Virus record (IMG/VR): IMGVR_UViG_3300046167_000605
Coordinates: 1 to 24,053 of that record
Direction: 5' to 3' (one strand)
DNA from: a virus
DNA: 24,053 nt
In this document: piece by piece, positions 5,521-23,515 of the stretch
Position numbering within the stretch: position 1 is the first letter of the stretch
How the letters are laid out: each line of letters starts with the position of its first letter
Position numbers and translations under genes: made by a program
Notes under the pieces: model-generated
Told to the model about the DNA's origin: nothing
What the model saw: only the letters and a program-made list of their open reading frames with translations
The model's database searches: none

Positions 5521-5549
5521 AGTATTGCGAACTGGACATGAACTGTCAA
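5521..5549 (-). promoter_or_regulatory. Sigma70-like promoter of the replication/recombination module
   Basis: TTGACA (5544-5549), 17-base spacer, AATACT (5521-5526). The -35 box is perfect and the -10 keeps the A, T, A and final T of the consensus. It overlaps the stop codon of the last tail gene and faces the left operon, separating late structural from replication genes. Confidence 0.55.
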
Positions 5550-7645
5550 GATTCTTTTTCAAATCTCTTTATAGCCCGTTTGACGAGCATTTCGCCAGCC
5601 CTGCGCACGAACGGCAGATTGCGTTTTTTCGCTTCAGCTTGTAGGTGATCAACAATAGCGTCCATGTGCTTCGTGCAGTCAGACCCCCATCGGTTCATCT
5701 TGACTTCCCAATCACGACATTTACAGCCGCCGCCCTTCTTGGCGTGAATACCCCATGCGGCGAGCATGTTCTTTAAATGCGTACCTGGGCCGGTGGTTGT
5801 GGTTGGCATGGTTCGGCCTCCTTGGGTAGTTGCAAAAGTTGTCGGATCGGTTGCTACTGTCGGCCCGGTTTCATAATCACAGTCTTCTCCGATAGGTCCG
5901 GCAGGAGTCCACGTAGGCGGTGGTTGACCAGAATTGAAATCCCAGCAATGAAAATAATCAGTGTTTGTAAAGCATGGTCCTAGCAGGCCCGCAATGCCGT
6001 CCTTACATTCTTCCACCGATATGTTAGGGGTAAACTCTCCACACAATTCGTAGCAGGCGGGTTCAGTAGAGTTGCCTACGCAATCGCCTGTCGGAAGGCA
6101 GCACGTACCTGCCTCTTCTTCCCATAGCTCAAGATCATAGGACATAGTCATTTTGCCGGACAAAACAACCGGCGCACTTCGGTACACTGGCGTTGTCCCA
6201 ATAGTACCATCAGGTTTAGTATATTGGCTTGACCCGCACGCACTGACGGAACCATTCAGATACGCTGCTGGGACTGTAATATCAACTTGCATCCCGCTTA
6301 CTTTAACGGCAACTTCTTCAGAGCCAGCGGGCGGAAAGCGGTTGTAACCAATCGTACAAAACCCCCCATTTGTAAACTCTTGCTGCACCGTAAAGTCTGG
6401 ATTGATATCTACAGACCAAGATGAGTCTACGCAGCCGCTTGTTATAGCACTGCAAAGGGAGCCAACTGGTCCCACTTCAGGTCTTTTATCTGGGTCTGCT
6501 ATTCCGCATATTACAAAACCGTCTGGGGGTTTAGTGTAGAACAATCCTGCCAAGTCATTGCCGCCTGTTCGTTCGCAGTAATTGTTTGGCCCCTGCTCAA
6601 ATGGAGGAGGGCCGCCTTCCCAGAACTCAACGCAGCCACGAAAGAACCACCGGCCCTCCATTGGGTATTCTGTTTGTGGAGTCTGCTCTGGGTAGAAATC
6701 AGAGAATGCTGAGAAACCTAGGCCTGAAACCCATGAATTAAATTGACTCAAAGTTCCAGTAAATCCTTCTGTATCGGATATGGGCCTACCCCAGCTATCA
6801 GCCTGCAACCCTGATAGATCAATTTCCAATTCCCCACTTGGCTTGACTCTTTTTCCGTTTACCGCACATGGATATTCTTGTGTGCATGGTTTTTTCTGAA
6901 ACCATTGCCTGACCGAAGGAGGTTCTTGGCAGAAGTCTTCACATTCGTCCGCAGTGTCCTTGCAAGACCCAACGGTCTTGTACCATCTTTCTGGGTTTTG
7001 CTTGTCGCAACCGTCGCCCTGAGATTGGTTGATGGGGAAATAGTTGCTAGGGTAATCAGACAAATCCTGAACCAGCAATTTGTCTGTGAGCCTTAGTTGC
7101 ACTTTCACTGTTCCAATTACATTATCAGTAAACGGTTCCAAAACATTCAAGCTAAATTCATGCTGACCAAACCCTTCAACCTGCCATGTTTCCCACCCGT
7201 CTGGAAGCGTAAGGGTATTGCAGGCGGTGCCAAGCTTTTCGTATTGAGGAACTTTCCCGGCAATCCCATCAGAACCTCTATCGAAAACGATAATTGGTTG
7301 GAACGATGGGTCGATGTTGTTGCTGTTGTTCTCTTCGTTTGTTGCTTCAAATTCAATGAAAACAGCGGCCCCGCCCCTTTGGGCTTGTCCGCCGCAGTTG
7401 CACCAATTTCCTGGGCCAAGGTAAGGGCCGATGTGGCTTGCCGTCTGCCGCGATTCAAAACGCAAACGCAACCCCGGCCAAATGCCGCAATTAAAAGTCT
7501 GGCTCATTAAGTCAGGTGGGACGTTGATTTCTGATATGCCAGCTTCATATATAATCCTTCCCCACGTTGCAATAGAGGACGTCAAGCAGCTCCAGCATTC
7601 GCCGACGTCACCACCGCAACACTTACTGCATGGCAGCAAAACCAT
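5546..7645 (-). CDS. Large cysteine-rich tail protein (699 aa)
   Basis: The last structural gene. The start at 7645 has GGAG 9 bases upstream and follows the previous stop by 3 bases. The N-terminus is dense in CxxC motifs (LPCSKCCGGDVGECWSCL). The middle is beta-rich with many Gly, Asn and Trp. Near the C-terminus is a disulfide-rich repeat CCLPTGDCVGNS...CYELCGEF. A Thr/Pro linker then leads to a compact C-terminal module of about 70 aa (GGCKCRDWEVKMNRWGSDC, then a basic helix). The arrangement suggests a distal tail or receptor-facing protein stabilised by disulfides or metal. From memory, the CCLP...C repeat and the CxC...MxxWG...C module occur in Planctomycete phage-like proteins. Function in adsorption is inference from position. 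Confidence 0.65.
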   Translation of the reverse strand: MVLLPCSKCCGGDVGECWSCLTSSIATWGRIIYEAGISEINVPPDLMSQTFNCGIWPGLRLRFESRQTASHIGPYLGPGNWCNCGGQAQRGGAAVFIEFEATNEENNSNNIDPSFQPIIVFDRGSDGIAGKVPQYEKLGTACNTLTLPDGWETWQVEGFGQHEFSLNVLEPFTDNVIGTVKVQLRLTDKLLVQDLSDYPSNYFPINQSQGDGCDKQNPERWYKTVGSCKDTADECEDFCQEPPSVRQWFQKKPCTQEYPCAVNGKRVKPSGELEIDLSGLQADSWGRPISDTEGFTGTLSQFNSWVSGLGFSAFSDFYPEQTPQTEYPMEGRWFFRGCVEFWEGGPPPFEQGPNNYCERTGGNDLAGLFYTKPPDGFVICGIADPDKRPEVGPVGSLCSAITSGCVDSSWSVDINPDFTVQQEFTNGGFCTIGYNRFPPAGSEEVAVKVSGMQVDITVPAAYLNGSVSACGSSQYTKPDGTIGTTPVYRSAPVVLSGKMTMSYDLELWEEEAGTCCLPTGDCVGNSTEPACYELCGEFTPNISVEECKDGIAGLLGPCFTNTDYFHCWDFNSGQPPPTWTPAGPIGEDCDYETGPTVATDPTTFATTQGGRTMPTTTTGPGTHLKNMLAAWGIHAKKGGGCKCRDWEVKMNRWGSDCTKHMDAIVDHLQAEAKKRNLPFVRRAGEMLVKRAIKRFEKES

Positions 7646-12833: not shown

Positions 12834-13826
12834 TTTGTCCTCGTACTAAATATTCCGTATTGGCTATTCATTTGCTGCAGAATCCTGCCGCCCCCATACT
12901 TGCGAGCGTACTTCCGCATCATGGCCTGATACTTTGGAGAAGCCACTTCCTTACCTGCTGCCTTCAACGCATTAAGCAGTTCTCGCGGCAGTATCTTTTG
13001 ACTCATGGATTTGATCTGTGACAATGCAGTGGACTGAATAGGGCTGGGAGTGATGCTGCCGGTGTAGCCGGGACGCTGGCCAGAGTTTCTTTTGGATTGC
13101 TTCCCTCGCATGATCTTTGCGTTCAACTCAAAGCCTCTTGCGCTTGTTTCGGCTGTAATGAAGTCACCGGGTTTCTTTCGGCGAACTGCACGCACCTTAG
13201 CCTTACCTGGTTCGGTTATTCTGTATGTGCCTTTCTTTTTCCCAGAACGAATCAGGTTATTGTCCAGCACTCTCAGGTTTCTTGCTGTGTTATCAAAATC
13301 AGCCGCCTTGCTTGCATCAATCTTCCTGTACCTCGCCTGCGTGCCTTCATCAAGCAGCATGGCAACATGGCCTCGCTTCGCCCCTGTCCGCATGTAGCCA
13401 ATCTTGCATTCAACGGCAGAGTCTCTTGGATAGCCGGGAAATATCTTTGTGGCACCTACTGAGTTCTGTAGTGCGTTAGGAATACGGCGAGTATATGATT
13501 TGCCATTCTTGCGAGTGTATGTTTTGTACTTAGAACCATACTTCTGCCTTGTTTTGTCAAACTTCTTTGCCTCTTGAACGTAAGCGTAAGCAAGGACTGC
13601 CAGACTGCACCCTCCCTTTTGAAGGCGACTTTACTGTTTGTTCTGTCTCGTATTTGTTTGTGCAGGCTCGTCGCAAGGCAGCACCAATGTGCTTGCGTCT
13701 GAGATTAACTGGAAACGCCAAAAACGCTTGGATGATGACATCGACCTGTTCTTGGATTTCCTTTTGGTTAAGTTCAATTCGACCCCCGCCGAACTTGCCA
13801 TACCTCTGTTTTGCAACACGTCCCAT
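12830..13826 (-). CDS. HK97 gp10-like head-tail protein, extended and frameshifted
   Basis: The N-terminal part (13826 to about 13615) reads GRIELNQKEIQEQVDVIIQA, then NLRRKHIGAALRRAC, the HK97 gp10 signature in which a helix is followed by RKxxxAALRRA. That frame then ends as SPCLRLRSRGKEV at 13557, but the +1 frame continues KGGCSLAVLAYAYVQEAKKF, ..., YTRRIPNALQNSVG, and GYMRTGAKRGHVAMLLDEGT to the stop at 12830. One extra A in TCAAAAGGG near 13615-13622 explains it. The joined protein is about 331 aa, much longer than the usual 120-170, with a basic Lys/Arg-rich C-terminal half ending in QMNSQYGIFSTRTK. Its start overlaps nothing but follows the fusion gene stop directly, with GAGAGG upstream. 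Confidence 0.65.
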
Positions 13827-14747
13827 TTACGACCTCTCTTCGCAAATGATGGTGTGGTACTCTTCATGACCAATCTCGGTGATTTGTGAGATGTACAGTA
13901 TCTTGTTGTATCGACTTTGCCAGCGTATCCGCATCTTGCCAGTGAGGCCAGGAAGGAATCGAGTGCGACATTGCCAAGACGTGTCACCCGCCGCCTGTTC
14001 CATTCTGGTGCTTTGAGAGTATGACAAGGAGGTGATGCTGCATCTGATTTTAGAGAAGCAATGCCACGTTTGGATGAATTCGCCCGTCTCGTTCTGCGTC
14101 TCTTTTGCGTACTCAACGTAGGCAACTTCTCTGAATGTGCCGAATCGCATTATGCTCTCCCATCGTAAGAGCACCCTGCAGGCCATCATGTCAAAACTCA
14201 TTGGCACCTCTACGCCGCCGCCTTCGGTTGAAACGGCAGAACGATTTTCATACCAGTGTCCAATCAAAACTAACATGCAGGACTTCCATAGCTGGCTGAT
14301 CTTCATTGGTGCATCAACGCCAGCCCACCATTCTATAGTCATCGTTGTGTCGCACCCTGGCGACGGTCCTGTGTAGTTGACCGTGCCGGGATAGTTAGCG
14401 TCGTCGTAGTTGATGTCCATTTCGGAAACAACAACTGTGTTGCCAGCATCGTCTTCGTAACTAAGTGTGATCGGGTGATTCTCGTCAACGTACAGCGGTG
14501 GGTATGGCAACTCTTGACCAACACAACTGCATGAATTCCAACCCTTTGTTTTTGCACGCCACTGGATGAGAGTTGTTGTTTGGCCTACCCTGTTTTCAAA
14601 GTAGATACGTGCTGCAGCTATTAACCCCATGAGATACTGATCGTCGTCTTTCATGTCCGGCATGATGCGAAGATGCGACTTGACTTCAGACAGTGAAAGA
14701 GGCTCGAAGTCTGGCTGAGTGCTGCGTCTGATGCTAGAGAAAGACAT
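13827..14747 (-). CDS. Head-tail connector (gp6-like) fused to head-closure protein (gp16-like)
   Basis: The start is placed at 14747 (MSFSSIRRSTQPDFEPLSLS) because the upstream in-frame extension reads through a terminator-like hairpin. Residues 1-199 are a gp6-like connector: LSEVKSHLRIMPDMKDDDQY, ARIYFENRVGQTT, IEWWAGVDAPMKISQLWKSC, VLIGHWYENR. Residues 200-306 begin MRFGTFREVAYVEYAKETQN, continue GEFIQTWHCFSKIRCSI, then MRIRWQSRYNKILYISQITE, the SPP1-gp16/Phage_H_T_join pattern. These are normally two genes. Here no stop separates them, but an internal ATG (14148-14150) has GGGAGA 5 bases upstream, so a separate closure protein could also be made. Total 306 aa. Confidence 0.7.
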   Translation of the reverse strand: MSFSSIRRSTQPDFEPLSLSEVKSHLRIMPDMKDDDQYLMGLIAAARIYFENRVGQTTTLIQWRAKTKGWNSCSCVGQELPYPPLYVDENHPITLSYEDDAGNTVVVSEMDINYDDANYPGTVNYTGPSPGCDTTMTIEWWAGVDAPMKISQLWKSCMLVLIGHWYENRSAVSTEGGGVEVPMSFDMMACRVLLRWESIMRFGTFREVAYVEYAKETQNETGEFIQTWHCFSKIRCSITSLSYSQSTRMEQAAGDTSWQCRTRFLPGLTGKMRIRWQSRYNKILYISQITEIGHEEYHTIICEERS

Positions 14748-14767
14748 GAGGGTTTCCTGTAAGAAAG

Positions 14768-14806
14768 CCCCCCTCACCACCGGAGGGTTAGGAGTGGTGA
14801 GGGGGG
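14768..14806 (-). terminator. Strong hairpin between capsid and connector genes
   Basis: A perfect 13-bp inverted repeat (CCCCCCTCACCAC at 14768-14780 with GTGGTGAGGGGGG at 14794-14806, 13-base loop). On the minus strand it is followed only by GCTTTCTTAC, so termination would be partial. Placed just after the capsid gene, it could lower expression of downstream genes relative to capsid or act as an RNA stabiliser. Confidence 0.6.
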
Positions 14807-14866
14807 TTGTGAACCTGCGGCGAGGAGACTCTAGCACGCAGGTCTAAAGCCACCGCCATTTTAAAA

Positions 14867-16162
14867 TCAACCACCGCCAGGAGCCGCGTCTTTGATCAAA
14901 GTGCAGAACTGCGGGACTGTGGTTGTTCCAGCCAGACTCGCATCTGGCCAAGGAATGTCGAGTAGCATCAAACTCCATAGCCCGTGTGTCACTACTGATG
15001 ATCTTTACGCCGCGTGACTTGGTGCCGTATGCACAAGCCTGCGAGAAAGAACCATGAACAGCTAGCACGTCTTCTGGCAACTCGTAAGACAAGTAAACAG
15101 GGCTACCAAACAAGTTTGCTTGGACTGCGTTTGTCATGATTGCGCCAGACTCAGGAGTCACAACATGCGACATTACGCTAGCCCAACCAGCAGGACTTAC
15201 AAGCCATGAAGGATTCTGGGTGTTGCGGTATGTCAGCATGACTGCCATTGATGCTTCGTCTGGCGAAATCTTGCCAGCTTCAGCAGCGGTTATGACATGC
15301 GATCCCGGTGTCGTAGCCTTCGATTGCATCACAAAGGCCTTCAACGCCAATGCCTGCATTTCCTTGCAGCCATGTGTTGTCGATTGTCTTCGCAAACGAA
15401 TTCGCAAAGGTTTCAACAACGTATCCAGCAGCGTAGATAGTGTCCTCAAGAAGTTCGCTAGAACAGTAGTTCAAGGTGTGCCATCTTGTGAAGCACAAGC
15501 TGTGCTGCATTGACAACTGGCTGCATTGGATCGATATGCGTCAGTTCTGTATAGAACTTGGCGTAAGGAGCCTCGTCAGCAATTGGAATTTGCAGGCCGT
15601 TTGTTGGCACGTTGAATGTGCGAGCAAGTTGAGGACAAAGTGCAATGTAGCCGACTTCGTTAATCAGACCGTTATAGAGAGTGTCCATAACGAGTGCCGA
15701 CATGGAAGTTGGGAACGTGGTTGCGTTCTCACCAGAACCGTAAGCAGCAATGCTGTCTACAGAAGCCTGCGGGTATGCGGAAGCAGCACGGGCCTGTACG
15801 CCTGCGATGCTTTGTACATATCGACCAAGTGCAGAAGCACCTTCATAGTCGCCGTCAAAGCAACGATGAAGTCTCTTCTTGTCGATAGCACGAATTTCGG
15901 TTTTCTTCTCTGGCTTTGATCGTACAAGGCCAGTTGTAGTGACTTGAGACTTGACAGACTCAACCTTCGCAAGTGCTGCGGCTGATCTCTGTTCTCTCTC
16001 AAGTGCTGCAGAGTGATCTTCTACAGATGCAACGAGTTTTTCGATCTCGCTAGCACGCACTTCCTCTTCCTCTGAGGTTTCGCACACCATGTCTTGCATG
16101 AGGCGAAGCTCTTCGGTTTTTTCGTTAAGGCTCTTCAAAGCCTTTTCTTCGGCTGGATTCAT
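14867..16162 (-). CDS. HK97-fold major capsid protein (three single-base frameshifts)
   Basis: The start is ATG at 16162 (MNPAEEKALKSLNEKTEELR), with GGAG 6 bases upstream; ATG 16174 lacks a site. Residues 1-75 are an acidic coiled coil, the delta (scaffold) domain cut by the prohead protease. The HK97 core follows: ALGRYVQSIAGVQARAASAY, then MSALVMDTLYNGLINEVGYI, PTNGLQIPIADEAPYAKFYT. It then shifts frame three times, always +1: near 15475-15482 (to TLNYCSSELLEDTIYAAGYV), near 15296-15310 (to HVITAAEAGKISPDEASMAV), and near 14952-14966 (to DIPWPDASLAGTTTVPQFCT). The third returns to the first frame and stops at 14867 after DAAPGGG. The resumed frames are all typical capsid sequence, so the intact gene is about 430 aa. 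Confidence 0.8.
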
Positions 16163-16211
16163 TTCTTTCTCCATGTAGTGAAATTGGCTGTAAGAGCCTT
16201 ATACGGTTATA

Positions 16212-16607
16212 TTACGTTGATTCGTCAGTTTCGGTAAAGTTCGACGGGGGGGTGTATGCCTGTCCCCGCCCGCCCCTCAGATCGTCCAGCTTTCGGCTGA
16301 TTTCCTTTGATGCTTCTTCCACGTCTTGAAGCCTGCGGTCAATGTCTTTTAGCATGTCCTGATTAATTGAGACGTTTTCGCTGTTTGTGCGACCAATGGT
16401 GACAATACCTTCCTTCAGTTCCTTGACCGTTTCGCTAAGGCTGGCATTGGATTGGCTGACTTCTTCCAACATCTTTTGATATCGCTGGTTAAGTGGTAAC
16501 ACGATAAACCACAGGCCAGCCAGAACTAGCATGGTGGCCAGCCCGTTCTTTTGCAGGAATTCAGATATCCCATTGACGGTTGCTATGTTCGGTGTGTCTT
16601 CGCTCAT
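16212..16607 (-). CDS. Membrane-anchored coiled-coil protein (131 aa)
   Basis: A single transmembrane helix (LATMLVLAGLWFIVLPLNQR, residues about 23-42) follows a short polar N-terminus. A long coiled coil occupies residues 45-110 (MLEEVSQSNASLSETVKELK, later DMLKDIDRRLQDVEEASKEI). A Gly/Pro tail follows. This could be a spanin-like or holin-accessory protein, or an inner-membrane scaffold; no lipobox or dual-start motif decides. It overlaps the PHA-like gene by ATGA and is followed by a 49-base gap to the capsid start, with only AT-rich sequence and no confident promoter. Role unknown; a lysis-cassette member by position is inference. Confidence 0.6.
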   Translation of the reverse strand: MSEDTPNIATVNGISEFLQKNGLATMLVLAGLWFIVLPLNQRYQKMLEEVSQSNASLSETVKELKEGIVTIGRTNSENVSINQDMLKDIDRRLQDVEEASKEISRKLDDLRGGRGQAYTPPSNFTETDEST

Positions 16608-16870
16608 AACGCCTTATCCATTTCTTTTTCAACTTGTTTCTGAATGCGGCTAGTGAACATCCTGGCTAGGCGTGGCAGATCAACGTCTAGCACCACTTCG
16701 TTATCTGTAACCTGGGCGGCACCGCTAACTGTGACGCCGTTGTAGGTCATGGACCCAGTGGCCGACTGATCGTCTACCCACTCCAGTGCCATACCCATTG
16801 TGTTAGCCAGACCAACCAACCGCTGTTTGGCTTCTGCCTGTGTTCTGTTGTGTTTGCGTTGAATTCTCAT
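16604..16870 (-). CDS. PHA-granule-regulator-like small protein (PHA_gran_rgn)
   Basis: The start is set at 16870 (MRIQRKHNRTQAEAKQRLVG), which overlaps the preceding stop by ATGA and has GGGAG 7 bases upstream. The upstream in-frame ATGs lie inside the cysteine-rich gene. The 88 residues show a basic helix, a strand ALEWVDDQSATGSMTYNGV, a GvSG-like loop (TVSGAAQVTDNEVVLDVDLP) and a C-terminal helix (FTSRIQKQVEKEMDKAL). This matches the polyhydroxyalkanoic-acid system / PHA granule regulatory family in order and size. The biochemical role of that family is poorly known, and in a phage a membrane- or head-associated role is possible. Confidence 0.6.
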   Translation of the reverse strand: MRIQRKHNRTQAEAKQRLVGLANTMGMALEWVDDQSATGSMTYNGVTVSGAAQVTDNEVVLDVDLPRLARMFTSRIQKQVEKEMDKAL

Positions 16871-17772
16871 CGTCTTCTCCCAAAGAGGCCGCGACTGTAC
16901 GAACGTGACGGGCCGGTTGGACATTGGCCACCAGGACACCCGCCGCTACTGTACGTTTTGGTTTTGCTTTTTACCGACGGCGTAGACGCCCTGACTTCTT
17001 CATTGTGAAGGAGGTTGTGCAGTGCAATCAATTCTTCACGGCTCATCTTGTCCAAACTAGCGGGATCAATAGAATGCTCACTTGTTAGGTGTTCACGCAT
17101 TCGGGATACCGGGACATTGGAAGTTCCCTGCCAGTTCCATTGCGTTTGAGAAAGGTCTGTGAGACATGCGGGTTCTGGTTCTATCGTTTCTGGCTGGTCT
17201 TCTATTTGCTTTGGCTCTACACATGTTGGACAATCGGGACACCCTTGCTTCCCCATTCCAGATTCTTCCAAAGCCTCCTGAAGCTGACGTTCCAGATACA
17301 GAACGTATCCTTCATCCGCCCGCTTCGGAGCAGTAGCCAGATCGTCAATCAGTTCATCGCGTTTTGGCGTGGCGCAGTTGCAGTTGTCACAGCACCCGCC
17401 GCCGCACTTACCGTCACAGTTGCCGCAGTTGCAGACGGATTCGCACATAGCTTCATCGACGTCATAGTCCATTTCGTCGCCAGCAGACTTCTTTGCTATC
17501 TTGCCTTTGTTGCAGTAGTAGAGTCCGTCTGACCATTCGCAGGGAAAGACGACGGTTCCGTCACCTAATTCGCCTGAACCGTTGCACTCATTGCAGTTGG
17601 CTCCAACTGTATAGATGCTTCCGCCGTCAGGTGCTTCTGCCTCAACGCCGACGACGACGTAAGCCAGATAGCTGGCCAGACGATGCTTCTCTGCATCTGG
17701 TAAGGCTGTGGCCGCTGCGGCACTATTCGCTATCAGTAAAAGTGAAAGTGAAAGCACATTTGCAATCTTCAT
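16867..17772 (-). CDS. Secreted cysteine-rich protein (301 aa)
   Basis: AGGAGG precedes the ATG at 17772. Residues 1-24 are a clear Sec signal peptide: Lys near the start, hydrophobic core NVLSLSLLLIANSAAA, and Ala-rich cleavage site. The mature part carries a DnaJ-like zinc-ribbon pattern (CNECNGSGELGDGTVVFPC). It then has a run of CxxC/CxCxNC motifs (CNCGNCDGKCGGGCCDNCNC), another CPDCPTC, an acidic coiled segment (YVLYLERQLQEALEESG), a SAP/LEM-like helical hairpin (REELIALHNLLHNEEVR), and a Cys/Gly/Ser basic tail ending SRGLFGRRR. A periplasmic or surface metal-binding or disulfide protein is likely; no enzyme is recognised. Unusual inside a head module. Confidence 0.7.
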   Translation of the reverse strand: MKIANVLSLSLLLIANSAAAATALPDAEKHRLASYLAYVVVGVEAEAPDGGSIYTVGANCNECNGSGELGDGTVVFPCEWSDGLYYCNKGKIAKKSAGDEMDYDVDEAMCESVCNCGNCDGKCGGGCCDNCNCATPKRDELIDDLATAPKRADEGYVLYLERQLQEALEESGMGKQGCPDCPTCVEPKQIEDQPETIEPEPACLTDLSQTQWNWQGTSNVPVSRMREHLTSEHSIDPASLDKMSREELIALHNLLHNEEVRASTPSVKSKTKTYSSGGCPGGQCPTGPSRSYSRGLFGRRR

Positions 17773-17896
17773 TATTGGCCTCCTGTTCTGATCTGGCTAT
17801 TGAGTCGTGGCACGTTGCAATCGAATCGGCATCTGTGGGGTAGCCGAAGAACCACAAATAGGGAACTATTATTAAATGTGCAGTCATGACGATCAT
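17723..17896 (-). CDS. Small membrane protein (57 aa) overlapping the secreted protein start
   Basis: A TAATG overlap couples this start (17896) to the peptidase stop, with an AGGG about 10 bases upstream. The product begins with MIVMTAHLIIVPYLWFFGYP, a hydrophobic helix suited to a signal anchor. It continues with an acidic, Cys-containing tail (SIARSEQEANNEDCKCAF) ending TDSE. The last 50 bases are read in a second frame as the signal peptide of the next gene. It could be a small spanin/holin-type lysis protein; no lipobox is evident. Real or not needs expression data, but the coupling and anchor argue for it. Confidence 0.45.
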   Translation of the reverse strand: MIVMTAHLIIVPYLWFFGYPTDADSIATCHDSIARSEQEANNEDCKCAFTFTFTDSE

Positions 17897-19023
17897 TAAA
17901 TTAAGTCCCTCAAATTCCAATCTTTCATCTTCTGTGGTGGGTAGCCTGAAATCGACGAAAGTATATAAGAGTCTCTGCCTGAGAAACTGGAGGCGGTACA
18001 AAAGAAGGAACCCTTTGGAATGCCGGGATATTTTGTGTTCCCCTGCGGGTGTGGGCGACTGCTGCCTAAGTATCCCGCCCAACTATTAAGTATCAAGAAC
18101 AAGGTGTCGCCATACTTCTGGTGCGCCCATTCGGTGTCATCATATCCGACGATTGCAAGGGCGTGTGACCAACTACCTGAGCGTTTGCAGTAGCCATCTG
18201 AATTCCTAGCACTACTACCCTTCCCGTAGCCCTGACCGCCACATGTAGACACGCCATAACCATTGGCAATGGCGTCCATGATCTCTTCCTTCTTGCTGGT
18301 GTTGCTTCGGCTGTATGTCAACGTGCAATGTTTGTTCAGCGTCTGAACAACATCATCAGGCGCACCAGTCTTACACCATTTGCCGATGACGTTGGTGTTG
18401 TACTTCAGTAGTAGATCGCCAAGTTTTGGATTCTCTGGATAGCTGATAGCCAGCACTAGACCTGTCTTGTCTTTGCTTCTGGCCGCTGCACTACTGCAAG
18501 ACCATCCTGAGATGCCGCCTTTTTTCTCTCATGTTTTATTGAACTTGTGGCCCACGCTTTCCTAACGCAGGCCACAAGCCCAATATGTGGGACTGGGATG
18601 AAATGGCATCCCGCTCCTGTAGGCAGCGTCTGGTATGTCAGGCCAACTTCCATTGCCATTCTTCACAGCATTAGCCAACGCCAAGATACCGGAATGGCTT
18701 TGACTTCTGGAAACACAGTCTCCGGTAGGCTGGCTGATGTATCCGTGAAACCAATCGTCTCTGCCGGATACTTCCCAACAAGAAGCATAGGAGAGAATCA
18801 ACTTCCCCTTGCCACTGTCGGCTATTCCATATTTGTGTGCCGCGTCAGCAAAGACACCATCAGTCTGTGCCTCTACTTCTTCGGCTCCATCTGGATCATA
18901 GATGGCACCTTCGCCACCTGATTCGTAATAGCTGACGCATTCATCAGGATTCTTAAACTCAGCAGGCGGTGGCATTGTGCCATCTGCCATGCGTTGTCGA
19001 AGTGTCTTCAGTTTCTTTGCCAT
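17896..19023 (-). CDS. Papain-family (C1) cysteine peptidase, interrupted by two in-frame stops
   Basis: The reading frame from 19023 carries the oxyanion Gln and catalytic Cys in ISQPTGDCVSRSQSH (Gln98, Cys103). After a break the same frame carries the catalytic His (GSWSHALAIVGYDD, residue 287) and Asn (LFLILNSWAGYLG, residue 313). The layout is that of C1 peptidases, about 375 codons, with no signal peptide. Codons 154 (TAG, 18562-18564) and 165 (TGA, 18529-18531) interrupt it; the sequence after them (KKGGISGWSCSSAAARSKDK) is in frame again. Either two point stops or a pair of compensating indels is present. Phage C1 peptidases may serve lysis, host-wall or host-defence roles; peptidoglycan is not a usual papain substrate, so the target is unknown. 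Confidence 0.7.
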
Positions 19024-19128
19024 TTACTTATTCCTATTTATTCGTTGATCAATAAACAAAGCAATGAACACCAACCCAATACCGACTATTGCAGTGACAC
19101 AGTGGTATTCAGTCGGCAGCAGGTTCAC
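19024..19128 (-). CDS. Small single-span membrane protein (34 aa, GTG start)
   Basis: A GTGA overlap with the stop of the 153-aa gene gives the start at 19128, with GGAAAGG about 7 bases upstream. Translation is MNLLPTEYHCVTAIVGIGLV, then FIALFIDQRINRNK. This is one transmembrane helix of about 18 residues with a polar start and a basic tail, a typical holin-like small membrane protein. It ends directly before the peptidase start (TAAATG). It would be missed by a 60-residue cutoff. Confidence 0.5.
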   Translation of the reverse strand: MNLLPTEYHCVTAIVGIGLVFIALFIDQRINRNK

Positions 19129-19586
19129 CTTGTTGCCTTTCCAATTTCCGTCAAGCAGTTTGCAAACTTACTACGGTCTGCGTCACTCATCGGTGCGATG
19201 TCATCGCCGATGCACTTCACCAATTCCGCTTCGATTGAATCCGCTAATGCTGGATACTTTGCAGATGGTTTGAATACACCGGCATAGTCAAATGACAATA
19301 TGCCAACTACGAAGGACTGTGCCTTCTCTGTGTCGGCTATCAATCCCCGCCCATCTGCGTTGACCATGTCCCCACCAGCTTTAAAGGCGTCTGATAACCA
19401 GATACGATCCTGATCTTCCATGCTACGGCTAGCCTGGTGTACGCCCGTCATCGGGCCGGTATATGGCTCCACAACTACACAGGGAACAGGTTCAGGCTTA
19501 GGAGGACGCCCTCCACCATCACCACCGAACAGGTAGCCCAGGGTGGCAAGGACTATTGCAATACGAACTAGATCATTGAACTTCAT
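19125..19586 (-). CDS. Membrane-anchored or secreted hypothetical protein (153 aa)
   Basis: Starts by ATGA overlap with the upstream gene. The first 22 residues (MKFNDLVRIAIVLATLGYLF) form an N-terminal hydrophobic anchor or signal peptide, followed by a Gly/Pro linker (GGDGGGRPPKPEPVPCV). The soluble remainder has short helices (RIWLSDAFKAGGDMVN, PALADSIEAELVKCIGDDIA) and two or three cysteines. No catalytic motif is seen. It forms a tight cluster with the membrane protein before it and the 34-aa membrane protein after it, so it is probably exported by the phage cassette. Family not recognised. Confidence 0.6.
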   Translation of the reverse strand: MKFNDLVRIAIVLATLGYLFGGDGGGRPPKPEPVPCVVVEPYTGPMTGVHQASRSMEDQDRIWLSDAFKAGGDMVNADGRGLIADTEKAQSFVVGILSFDYAGVFKPSAKYPALADSIEAELVKCIGDDIAPMSDADRSKFANCLTEIGKATR

Positions 19587-19942
19587 CGTGCCACCTTTGT
19601 CACAGTGACGCTAGCCCCTTCTACCTGCGGCCTTCCGCTGACTATTTCATGGATAAGTGTGTCACAGGCTGCAACTGCCTCTGGCAGCTTTCGCTTGTCA
19701 ACGTAGATGCGAACGGCCATAACATCGGCAACCCATTCGGTTCTAGTCTTCTCCTGCACTGGTTCAGGGACACAGCAGCAGGGACAGTTGCCGTGAACGT
19801 GTCCGTTCTCTTTCTTCTCTTCCCCGCCACCAGCCTGCAATGCGGCAATCTGTTCTTTGATCTTTGGCCAGAACAACACAACGGCTGCACCGATGGCTAT
19901 TAGAATCTTGTCAATGTTTGACGTTATCGTCTCAATCATCAT
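19583..19942 (-). CDS. Membrane protein with Cys/His-rich motif (119 aa)
   Basis: AGGAGG sits 4-7 bases before a double ATG at 19942. Residues 12-28 (ILIAIGAAVVLFWPKIKEQI) are one transmembrane helix. They are followed by a soluble segment with GHVHGNCPCCCVPEPVQ, in which clustered His and Cys could bind metal. The C-terminal half (MAVRIYVDKRKLPEAVAACD, later IHEIVSGRP) looks like a small helical domain. It starts right after the prohead protease gene (6-base gap), opening the non-structural cassette. No family recognised; a holin or membrane-adaptor role is possible but not shown. Confidence 0.6.
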   Translation of the reverse strand: MMIETITSNIDKILIAIGAAVVLFWPKIKEQIAALQAGGGEEKKENGHVHGNCPCCCVPEPVQEKTRTEWVADVMAVRIYVDKRKLPEAVAACDTLIHEIVSGRPQVEGASVTVTKVAR

Positions 19943-19948
19943 CCCCTC

Positions 19949-20581
19949 CTATGTGCTTCTCTTACTTAACTGTTCCGCTCTGGCCAACGAGGCCTTAGCA
20001 GTGGCTTGTGCGCGTTTGTATGCAACGCATGGATTGGCTGGTACTTCTGCCTCTTTGGCTATCTCTTTGCGTTCGCCTAATGAACGAATAGCGACAGAAG
20101 CGTCTTCGTATGCGCCGACTGTAACCAGAGATACGTCGAAAAGACCAGATACTTTTTTAATTGTTCGCAATGAAGTTCCGTCGTCTCGTTCTTCCCACTC
20201 CTGGCCGTCGTCTTCAACGGTGAACGCGAATGACGATCCGTTTACGTCGCCACGCTGCAGTAACTCACGCATGTCATTGCCAAGAGTTGTGTTTGGTGGA
20301 TCAACCTCGTAGTGCAGTCCGTCGTCTTCAGTCCATAAGCGAAGGGTGCCGCTGCTAGTCCTACCAAGAAGGTCATCAGAATTGTGATTCCATAGACAGG
20401 TAACGTCAGGATTGGCCTCGAGTGCATCGTCAAAGGCGTGCCGATCAATAACCTCTGTGAAACCGCCAAGATCGCGTGACTCACTGTTGAACACGCTGGC
20501 AACACCGCGTATCTTCTTGTCTTCGCCTTGCTCAATAGCACGCTCTGATGAGGCTACGCCTCGTCTTTCAAGATTCTTCAT
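19949..20581 (-). CDS. HK97-type prohead maturation protease (U35/S78)
   Basis: The start is placed at ATG 20581 (MKNLERRGVASSERAIEQGE), with GAGGA about 9 bases upstream; a TTG at 20602 would extend it by 7 residues. The catalytic His is in TCLWNHNSDD (residue 66) and the catalytic Ser in DVNGSSFAF (residues 116-117). These spacings agree with HK97 gp4. A conserved GVASVFN strand and GLFDVSLVTVGAYEDASVA strand surround the site. It cleaves the capsid delta domain before maturation; in this window the capsid gene has that domain. Length about 210 aa, usual for the family. It overlaps the portal gene by 14 bases. Confidence 0.85.
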   Translation of the reverse strand: MKNLERRGVASSERAIEQGEDKKIRGVASVFNSESRDLGGFTEVIDRHAFDDALEANPDVTCLWNHNSDDLLGRTSSGTLRLWTEDDGLHYEVDPPNTTLGNDMRELLQRGDVNGSSFAFTVEDDGQEWEERDDGTSLRTIKKVSGLFDVSLVTVGAYEDASVAIRSLGERKEIAKEAEVPANPCVAYKRAQATAKASLARAEQLSKRST

Positions 20582-21881
20582 CGTCTGTTTCCTCATCTTC
20601 AAATGGATTGGCTTGTGGTTCGGTTTGTGGTTCGGGCGCTTCTTCGCCTACTTCTCCGACGTTGTTTGTTGGCAAGTAGTATTTGTCCATTCCCTCTTGG
20701 TCCACTGGCGGCAAATCTTCCAACTTTCTAATATCAGCAGGAGACAAAGCACCAACAGAAAAAAGCGAACTGTAAAAGCTGGCTCTTGCTTGCGAATCGC
20801 CACGCATTACACCTCTTACATCGAGTTGTATGAACTTCTTCGGCTTGCCACGAAGCAGGCCCATGTTAAACGCACTTTCAAAGCGTTCTACCCATGCAGA
20901 AAGTCCACCAGACAACCAATTCAACTGTGCCTGTTCAGCGTTGCTATATGTGCTGCGTGAGTCTTCTCCAATAAGCGAGTTTGGGACACGCATAGCCCTT
21001 GCTATCTGTTGAGTCAGCAGTGTTCTCAATTCAACTAGCTGCGAACTCTCATTTGTTTGTGCGGCAATCGGCGCAACAGCAACTCCATTTGGCAGGACTG
21101 CAGTACGGCCTGCGTTTGATGCACCTTTGTGCATTGACTCCCACTGCCTACGCATCTTGTCAGCCGCTTCTTGCGGAATTGGCTGGCTAGTCGTCAGCAC
21201 AACTGCAGGCTTTGCTTCATTTGCAAAGAAGTTGTTGACATAGAGGTCAATCTGGCGTGCTGCAGCAATGCAGGTTTGCATTAAGTGTGCCGGAACCACT
21301 CCCGTGTAGCCGTTGTCACTGAGGTATCTAACATGAATGATGTCGTCTTGAGAGTAGCGAACACCTTCCTGTCCAGGATGCGTCATGTAGTCGTATGCAA
21401 GGCGATTGTTCTTTAACATCTGCACGCTGACAAGCGCAGGATGCAATGGCCAGATGGCCTTGACGTTGCCACTGCCATCATACTCTTTGACTGCATAGCT
21501 ATTGCCATAAGTGCAACAGTGCATCGCCATTTGGCAACGAGCGTCCCATGATGACTGATATTCGTTAAAGCGATTTGCCAAGACGTTGTAAAGAGGATTG
21601 TTTTCGTCAGGCACAGAACCGTCATCGTTCTTTTTCATCAGCTTCATTGGCAGGCCAGCAACGCCTTCCGCAATAACGCGGACGCACGCATGGAAAGCAG
21701 AAACGGCGAGGGATTGCTCAACTTCCGTTTCGCTCAACCCCCCACCGTAGATAGCTACATCGCCACTGAGAAGGCGGACGCCGCCACCTGAGTTGCTGAA
21801 AGAGAATGCTGGGCGTGGTGCGGCTCGCTCGTCTCTCGGAGACGGGTCAATGAAGCTCGCTAGTCTGGTTCGTAAACTCAT
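20568..21881 (-). CDS. HK97 family portal protein
   Basis: The 437-residue frame is intact. Landmarks of the family are EVEQSLAVSAFHACVRVIAE, VAGLPMKLMKK, DARCQMAMHCCTYGNSYAVK, VQMLKNNRLAYDYMT, YSQDDIIHVRYLSDNGYTGV, and the C-terminal QIARAMRVPNSLIGEDSRST with NAEQAQLNWL. Ends in a long acidic Glu/Asp tail (FEDEETDDEES). It forms the dodecameric ring through which DNA enters and exits. The start overlaps the large-terminase stop by ATGA. Size matches HK97-type portals (about 400-450 aa). Confidence 0.9.
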   Translation of the reverse strand: MSLRTRLASFIDPSPRDERAAPRPAFSFSNSGGGVRLLSGDVAIYGGGLSETEVEQSLAVSAFHACVRVIAEGVAGLPMKLMKKNDDGSVPDENNPLYNVLANRFNEYQSSWDARCQMAMHCCTYGNSYAVKEYDGSGNVKAIWPLHPALVSVQMLKNNRLAYDYMTHPGQEGVRYSQDDIIHVRYLSDNGYTGVVPAHLMQTCIAAARQIDLYVNNFFANEAKPAVVLTTSQPIPQEAADKMRRQWESMHKGASNAGRTAVLPNGVAVAPIAAQTNESSQLVELRTLLTQQIARAMRVPNSLIGEDSRSTYSNAEQAQLNWLSGGLSAWVERFESAFNMGLLRGKPKKFIQLDVRGVMRGDSQARASFYSSLFSVGALSPADIRKLEDLPPVDQEGMDKYYLPTNNVGEVGEEAPEPQTEPQANPFEDEETDDEES

Positions 21882-23515
21882 ATGATAAAGATGTCGTAGT
21901 TTTGCTCTAACTGAGCTTCGGCTGTATCAAGAACGCCTATAGCCATAGCTAAAGCGACAATACCATCCACTTTCTCCGACGAATGTTTTTTAGATACTCG
22001 TATGTTTTGGTTTGCGTCTTCAATAGTGACTGCATTGTCGCTTTGCCATGCCAGCACGGGATTGCCGCCATGCCTGAGACCTCCACTGGCAACCAACGTT
22101 TCCAAGCGTTTGCAAGGTGACGAAAGAGCGGAGAATCCTTGACCATATCCTGTCACAGGAATGCCTTGTTGGTAAAGTTGAGTCATGAGGCTAGCAGCGT
22201 TCCATTTGTCGCACGCTATCTGCTGTACGTTGTGATTTGCACAGAATTCTTCGATATATTGACGCACTACTTCGTAGTCGCAGATGTTGCCAGGTGTGGC
22301 GATCATGTAGCCTTGTTCAGTCCACATTCCATATGGAACTTTATCTTTAGCCTCTCTTTCAACCGCATTATCGCGAGGCACAAAGAACTGGGTCTGTATG
22401 TCGAGTGTGCCATCGTCTCTTTTTGCTATAGCTACGAATGACGTAGTGTCCCAAGTGCTTGCAAGATCGAGGCCACAGAAAACCGGCCTGTCGCCAAACG
22501 GTTCTGGCTGTTCGTTACCCTGCGCCCAATCACCAGGACGGAACCAGCCGAACATCTGCAGTTGTGTCAGGACAGTTGAGACGATAACGCAACCAGCTAT
22601 TCCTCTTAGGCTGGCATGTTGCGGCTCTCAGGCCTCATCTGACTTGAAACGAGTCCAAAGAGATGGTTGTGCCAAGAGACGGGTTCGCTTGCTTCCACAC
22701 CTCCGGGTCTTCGTGGTCGTCGTCTTTGATGCAGCCCAGATGCGGCCATAGAAAGATGGATCAAGTGACGGATCGGCCATGTTCTGTTCTGACTGTCGCC
22801 ACAACTCCCACCAGATACCACGCTTGTCATATCCTGCTGTACTGATTGTTATGAACAGCGGGTTGCGTCTGGCTGCAGTTGCATACCGCAAAGCACGGAA
22901 CAGCTTGTCATTTGGCAAGGAATGCACCTCGTCAACGGCGACAAATGACGCATCAATACCTTCTGCACGGAACGCATCCGACGACAGGACCGTGTACCGG
23001 CTATTACTCTTGCGATGCAACACAGCGTTGCGTGATTCGACGATCTCAACTTGTTTCAGCAGCAATGGGTGAGACTTCATCATTGCAATCATTTCGCGTG
23101 CAATGATACCGGCCTGCATTCTGTCAGCAGCAGCAGAGAAGCACTGTGCGCCTGCTTCACCATCAGCCAATAGCATGTATGCAGACAATGCAGAGACGAG
23201 GAAGGACTTGCCGTTCTTTTTGCTGATCCAGATAGACGCATTACGGAACCTGCGTGTTCCATCCTTGTTGTACCAGCCAAACAAAGGTGCAATCACCTCG
23301 TCACGCTGCCAAGGAAGCAGGGTGATTGACTCACCCGCATTGTCGCCTTTTGTGAACCTGCAAAACGTCTCTATGAACTTGCAAACGCGATCCACCTTGT
23401 CTTGCTTCCAGACATACCCTGGTAGGTACTCTGGACGACTCTTTTCAGGCGCTTTTATGCGTTTGCGAGTTGTCTTTTTCTTGACAGTAGACTTTGCAGC
23501 CTTTTTTCGCGGCAT
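21878..23515 (-). CDS. terL: Terminase large subunit (five single-base frame changes)
   Basis: The N-terminal ATPase has Walker A KKNGKS (residues 99-104) and Walker B VAVDEVH (192-198). The C-terminal nuclease has GLDLAS, ACDKWNA and KVDGIVALAMA, the acidic residues of the RNase-H-like fold. The middle is broken. From 22740 to 22565 the expected family sequence can be followed only by hopping frames: ASK-DDDHEDPEVWKQANPSL, DSF-KSDEA, ESRNMPA, then NSWLRYRLN, then LTQLQMFGWFRPGDW. That needs one missing base and four extra bases within about 175 bp, with net frame unchanged. The two frames flanking it are open and intact. Full length about 545 aa. The start overlaps the small-terminase stop by TAATG. 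Confidence 0.85.

Follow-up and report, generated by a model that had tools for sequence, protein, structure and literature searches.

Here we describe a gene cassette (19942-16212, minus strand) in the record of an uncultivated virus, IMGVR_UViG_3300046167_000605. The whole of this 24,053-nucleotide (nt) stretch, hereafter the window, was analysed, and its phage genes lie on the minus strand. The cassette sits between the genes for a Peptidase_S78 prohead protease and an HK97-type capsid protein, and comparison with related phages indicates that it is a conserved, horizontally exchanged module, with the core g1-g2-[g3]-g4-g6-g8 and varying cargo such as g7. We propose that the host envelope is the target of its products and that it is most likely a non-canonical lysis module whose enzyme is a protease, a reading that we favour only tentatively. 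A preliminary description, made from the letters of the window alone, had placed eight genes between protease and capsid; the location stands, as do seven of the genes (g1, g2, g3, g4, g6, g7 and g8), but g5 does not.

Sharing and exchange of the module

Searches of viral contigs recovered relatives of two kinds, a siphovirus type (L002-L006, L013 and L020) and a P22-portal type (L007, in the 39-kb record G001; L014/L015; and L017). L014 and L015 are 99.9% identical and represent one phage found in two samples. The portal of L007 is P22-like (2.1e-11), and the capsid and terminase of this second type are unrelated to those of the window. When all open reading frames (ORFs) of the window were compared by BLASTP with the three P22-portal-type phages (E<=1e-5), solely g1, g2, g4, g6 and g8 found matches, in the same order, with g4 of the window and of L007 sharing 81-84% identity. 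The preliminary description had proposed looking for co-occurrence in related phages, and the genes do travel together in order, even in the company of unrelated capsid, portal and terminase genes, which supports a coherent module and speaks against unrelated fillers. In the P22-portal type, the module has capsid/decoration genes on one side and, on the other, the large terminase gene, just upstream of which it lies. The slot between protease and capsid, first taken as the defining feature, is therefore not the module's defining position.

Comparisons with siphovirus-type records also point to exchange. Between the window and L013, identity is 85% for g1 and 90% for g2, far above the 42% of the portal and the 49% of the protease; together with the shared gene order in phages with unrelated head genes, this is why we consider the module to be horizontally exchanged. 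L005 and the window share 97% identity across window positions 23066-19115. In g3, however, identity drops to 47%, and at the expected start of g4 there follows in L005 a different, decoration-protein-like ORF (L005:3933-4342; MAVIELSDLIVMDGSASS...). To judge from this alignment, the g3 region of L005 is a recombination boundary. The module as a unit is common to both phage types, and L005 keeps g1-g3.

The cargo is variable. g7 occurs in 4 of 10 related records, none of them of the P22-portal type, and L007 carries a DUF6321 protein (6.9e-25) and a secreted HExxH protein. The latter, of 196 amino acids (aa) and with the zincin-like motif HECVH, is encoded between g4 and g6 (L007:8561-9151) in this carrier only, and has no family match. 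In every P22-portal-type carrier, the gene immediately upstream of g1 encodes a small secreted protein in which CHG motifs recur (L007:6078-6494, L014:2977-3324 and L017:6605-7003); the L007 copy has no family match.

Beyond these records, tblastn searches of 50,697 deposited phage records with g2, g4 and g7 returned no matches, and we found no description of this module in the literature. For g4, a search of 84,980 bacterial and archaeal genomes by exact short peptides, which misses distant relatives, also returned nothing.

Genes of the cassette

As first described, the genes are tightly coupled: stop and start codons overlap by 4 nt at g1/g2, g2/g3, g6/g7 and g7/g8, and g3 and g4 abut, giving five such junctions. 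Several junctions of the L007 module likewise abut or overlap by 4 nt. The genes are presumably co-transcribed. The supported genes are under purifying selection. The ratio of non-synonymous to synonymous differences (pN/pS), computed on homologue pairs and given here for the closest usable pairs, is 0.17 for g1 (against L013), 0.095 for g2 (against L005), 0.18 for each half of g4 (against L007), 0.21 for g7, 0.19-0.22 for g8 and 0.46-0.57 for g6 and g3. Because pN/pS is low and gene order is kept across phages, we consider the cassette to be more than a set of chance ORFs.

Hydrophobic segments were called by the Kyte-Doolittle scale only, at a threshold of 1.6, with g2 and some g8 homologues lying at or below it. 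By this measure, g1, g2, g3 and g8 have one hydrophobic segment each, g6 starts with a signal-peptide-like sequence and g4 has neither, leaving g4 as the only core gene whose product lacks a transmembrane (TM)- or signal-like segment. In g1, g2 and g8 the segment is N-terminal, in agreement with the three N-terminally anchored proteins initially proposed. The window coordinates of the genes that follow are all on the minus strand.

The core gene g1 (19583..19942) encodes a 119-aa protein with one predicted N-terminal TM segment (NIDKILIAIGAAVVLFWPKIK), a CPCCC cluster and a C-terminal part, and has homologues in L005, L007, L013, L014, L017 and L020. Next in the core, g2 (19125..19586; 153 aa) combines an N-terminal hydrophobic anchor with a Pro-rich linker and an all-helical domain. 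An AlphaFold2 (AF2) model of g2 reaches a predicted local distance difference test score (pLDDT) of about 80 across parts of residues 41-153. No PDB structure matches this model at E<=0.001, and its best viral structure matches are two uncharacterized proteins of uncultured phages, with high probability and E values of 0.012 and 0.089. The 34-aa single-TM miniprotein g3 (19024..19128) has a GTG start that overlaps the g2 stop; counterparts of equal position and size are found in L005 and L017, and its start in L020. It is one of two very short hydrophobic proteins in the preliminary description, the other being g5 (17723..17896), a doubtful hydrophobic ORF of 57 codons. We do not accept g5 as a gene because none of the relatives has a homologue of it and because its 3' part shares bases with the start of g6, which is read in another frame.

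The core gene g6 (16867..17772) encodes the secreted, Cys-rich protein that had been noted, 301 aa long with 19 Cys residues. It has a zinc-ribbon-like CxECxGxG motif, a conserved W...HL...H...LHN..HN region and a C-terminal RGLFGRR; the L014 copy matches DnaJ_CXXCXGXG weakly, below the cut-off. g7 (16604..16870), found in the siphovirus-type module only, encodes an 88-aa protein of the PHA_gran_rgn domain family (PF09650), which bears out its earlier likening to polyhydroxyalkanoate (PHA) granule proteins: it scores 46.7 bits (E 3.9e-12) against a gathering cut-off of 26.6 and does so over its full length, with 45.6-52.1 bits for the g7 of relatives. It departs from that family in being phage-borne, in having no tie to a PHA gene here and in scoring only 25.2 bits against NCBIfam TIGR02610, under the cut-off of 40.25. 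The last core gene, g8 (16212..16607), encodes 131 aa with a predicted TM segment (residues 21-41) followed by a coiled coil, and is present in every module record that extends that far. The only matches to PADLOC profiles of anti-phage defence proteins are weak, partial ones to this coiled-coil region, the best being to ZorA (E 1.2e-4).

A peptidase candidate and its hairpin insert

The fourth gene, g4 (17896..19023), encodes a protein without a signal peptide that we predict to be a papain-like (C1-like) cysteine peptidase, an assignment that is well motivated but not proven. The candidate residues are a Cys in QPTGDCVSR, a His in GSWSHA and an Asn in LNSW. Intact homologues of 351-358 aa are encoded at L007:7488-8564, L014:4207-5265 and L017:8001-9056; QPxGDCVSR, GSWSH and LNSWG are conserved among them, and the Cys, the His and the Asn of NSW follow in this order in the window, L007, L014 and L017. 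When a g4 profile was aligned by hhalign to a small alignment of the C1 papain family, the two matched across the His...NSWG region with 87% probability (E 3.7e-6), over 30 columns only. In control runs, none of 200 column shuffles exceeded 8.2%, and reversing the profile gave 0.2%. The surroundings of the Cys lie outside this match and resemble C1 peptidases by motif only. g4 thus shares with the C1 papain family (PF00112) the order Cys...His...Asn with NSWG, but differs in a Gln-to-Cys spacing of 5 residues rather than the 6 of papain, in a long conserved N-terminal extension and in its lack of a signal peptide. The cysteine peptidase initially proposed is supported by the Cys/His/Asn motifs and by the profile–profile match, but it lacks a family-database match and its gene is split in the window by a 51-nt insert.

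The insert (18529..18579, minus strand) is in frame and interrupts g4 with a TAG at the loop of a hairpin and a TGA at its own end. It is missing from all of the intact homologues (L007, L014 and L017). With its flanking bases, it is predicted to form a 22-bp RNA hairpin (stem about 18585-18537) with a minimum free energy of -34.2 kcal/mol (z -5.5), and no other 51-nt stretch of the minus strand is as stable. A single scan of viral contigs with a degenerate pattern turned up no further copies. The exact boundaries read UGG and UGA. A GGC/GGC pair could be drawn instead, but no stop follows it directly. The insert could be an inactivating insertion, a small mobile hairpin, an artefact or an element for read-through or bypass.

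Neighbouring genes and record quality

The cassette is preceded on the minus strand by genes for the small terminase (24033-23515), the large terminase (23515-21878), the portal (21881-20568) and the flanking prohead protease (19949-20602; Peptidase_S78, E 2.9e-45). On its other side lies the major capsid gene (14844-16174, minus strand), whose intact homologue L003:1137-2429 belongs to PF05065 (E 5e-12), with head-tail and tail genes next. The frames of the large terminase and capsid genes are broken by single-base indels at 22740-22545 (relative to L005) and 15500-15290 (relative to L003), respectively, both on the minus strand; judging by these alignments, they are most likely sequencing errors. 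A strong hairpin 3' of the capsid gene, at about 14756-14816 in the window, recurs in siphovirus-type relatives (L002:2051-2105, L003:2476-2550, L004:2531-2587 and L006:2756-2812) and is probably a terminator or attenuator. Finally, an 87-aa C-terminal domain of a tail protein (TGPGTHL...CKC...) is common to the window (5549-5809, minus strand) and L011 (7149-7409, minus strand). It has no match in deposited phages or plasmids, and the exact-peptide scans of bacterial and archaeal genomes returned nothing for it either. Tail domains with GPGTHL may be typical of Planctomycetota, although the readings given here do not draw on this.

Functions considered for the module

We rank a lysis module ahead of an envelope-modifying module without lysis, and that in turn ahead of a virion-associated one. 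Lysis comes out as the most likely reading because the cassette combines a soluble enzyme and a secreted protein with several single-TM proteins and a TM/coiled-coil protein, because it is tightly coupled with late genes and because it lies upstream of the large terminase gene in one phage type. T7 and N4 keep lysis genes near the large terminase. In this model, the module is read as a segment of the late operon. The small single-TM proteins g1, g3 and g8 would take holin-like or membrane-lesion roles and give the cytosolic papain-like peptidase g4 access to the envelope, in which it might cut protein or peptide cross-links; the outer side would be the place of action of g6, which is secreted and Cys-rich, and of the anchored domain of g2. 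Small single-TM proteins, a soluble enzyme without a signal peptide, a secreted protein, a TM/coiled-coil protein, tightly overlapping genes and, in one phage type, a place just upstream of the large terminase gene are all features shared with the canonical cassette of holin, endolysin and inner- and outer-membrane spanins. Unlike that cassette, the module has an enzyme that resembles C1 peptidases rather than peptidoglycan hydrolases, and its secreted protein is Cys-rich and zinc-ribbon-like where the canonical one is a spanin lipoprotein. A bolder version, which we regard as improbable, is lysis with no peptidoglycan hydrolase at all, in which unrelated phages of one host group would share a mobile module: its holin-like membrane proteins would free a papain-like protease, which would take apart an envelope that is rich in protein or cross-linked by protein.

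Several observations weigh against lysis. Holin, endolysin and spanin profiles of Pfam, PHROG and NCBIfam gave no significant match to any cassette protein (g3 being outside the holin scan): g1 and g8 match no holin profile, g8 reaches only E 0.056-0.07 against Rz-like spanin PHROGs, and no lipoprotein partner for it was identified. C1 enzymes cleave proteins, not peptidoglycan. g4 itself has no sequence match in Pfam (even at E<=10), NCBIfam, PHROG or the PDB, its AF2 model from three sequences has no usable fold (pLDDT 34.5), and its copy in the window is split by in-frame stop codons. Given the other ORF in its place in L005, g4 may be dispensable or displaced. In keeping with the preliminary description, which recognized no classical endolysin in the window, Pfam lysis enzymes were found neither among 49 further proteins encoded by the window and G001 nor among ten more of the L014 phage; the PHROG scan of the other window and G001 proteins lists 25 of 61 families. 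This absence is weak evidence because all of the genomes are fragments, whose missing parts may hold a standard lysis gene.

The same membrane and secreted proteins, with the peptidase, might instead remodel or shield the envelope without lysis, as a moron-like module for host modification or superinfection exclusion. Its mobility between phage types, its secreted and anchored proteins and its variable cargo (g7; the DUF6321 and secreted HExxH proteins of L007) make this possible, if doubtful. Classical morons carry their own promoter and terminator, whereas promoter- and terminator-like sites are at chance level across 13800-21900 (sigma-70-type promoters only), the genes are tightly coupled inside the head operon, and a conserved core of five genes is large for a moron. 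In both phage types the module always lies close to genes for capsid, decoration or terminase proteins, which would also suit a head-assembly or virion-associated module, with proteins that are packaged or that aid maturation or ejection; g4 would then be a protease that serves maturation or is injected. This we think unlikely: the two types share the module but have unrelated capsids, portals and terminases, an S78 prohead protease is already present in the siphovirus type, and heads do not usually contain TM or secreted proteins. A metabolic auxiliary set for PHA centred on g7 is very improbable. Although g7 is a clear PF09650 member, it falls below the TIGR02610 cut-off, is missing from all P22-portal-type carriers and is the only PHA-related gene seen, and we reject this explanation as g7 is outside the shared core. 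That the cassette consists of chance ORFs or an assembly chimera, as might be suspected of a record in which single-base indels break the terminase and capsid frames and a hairpin is inserted in g4, is hardly credible and is refuted by independent records with the same genes in the same order under purifying selection.

A syntenic set of genes that moves between phages with unrelated capsids, and whose searched members are unmatched in the deposited records, points to a needed function that annotation pipelines have missed. If the lysis reading is true, a protease-based enzyme would be added to a step thought to depend on peptidoglycan hydrolases; if the module instead remodels the envelope, it would represent a new class of exchangeable interface between phage and host. 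Either reading provides specific genes to test.

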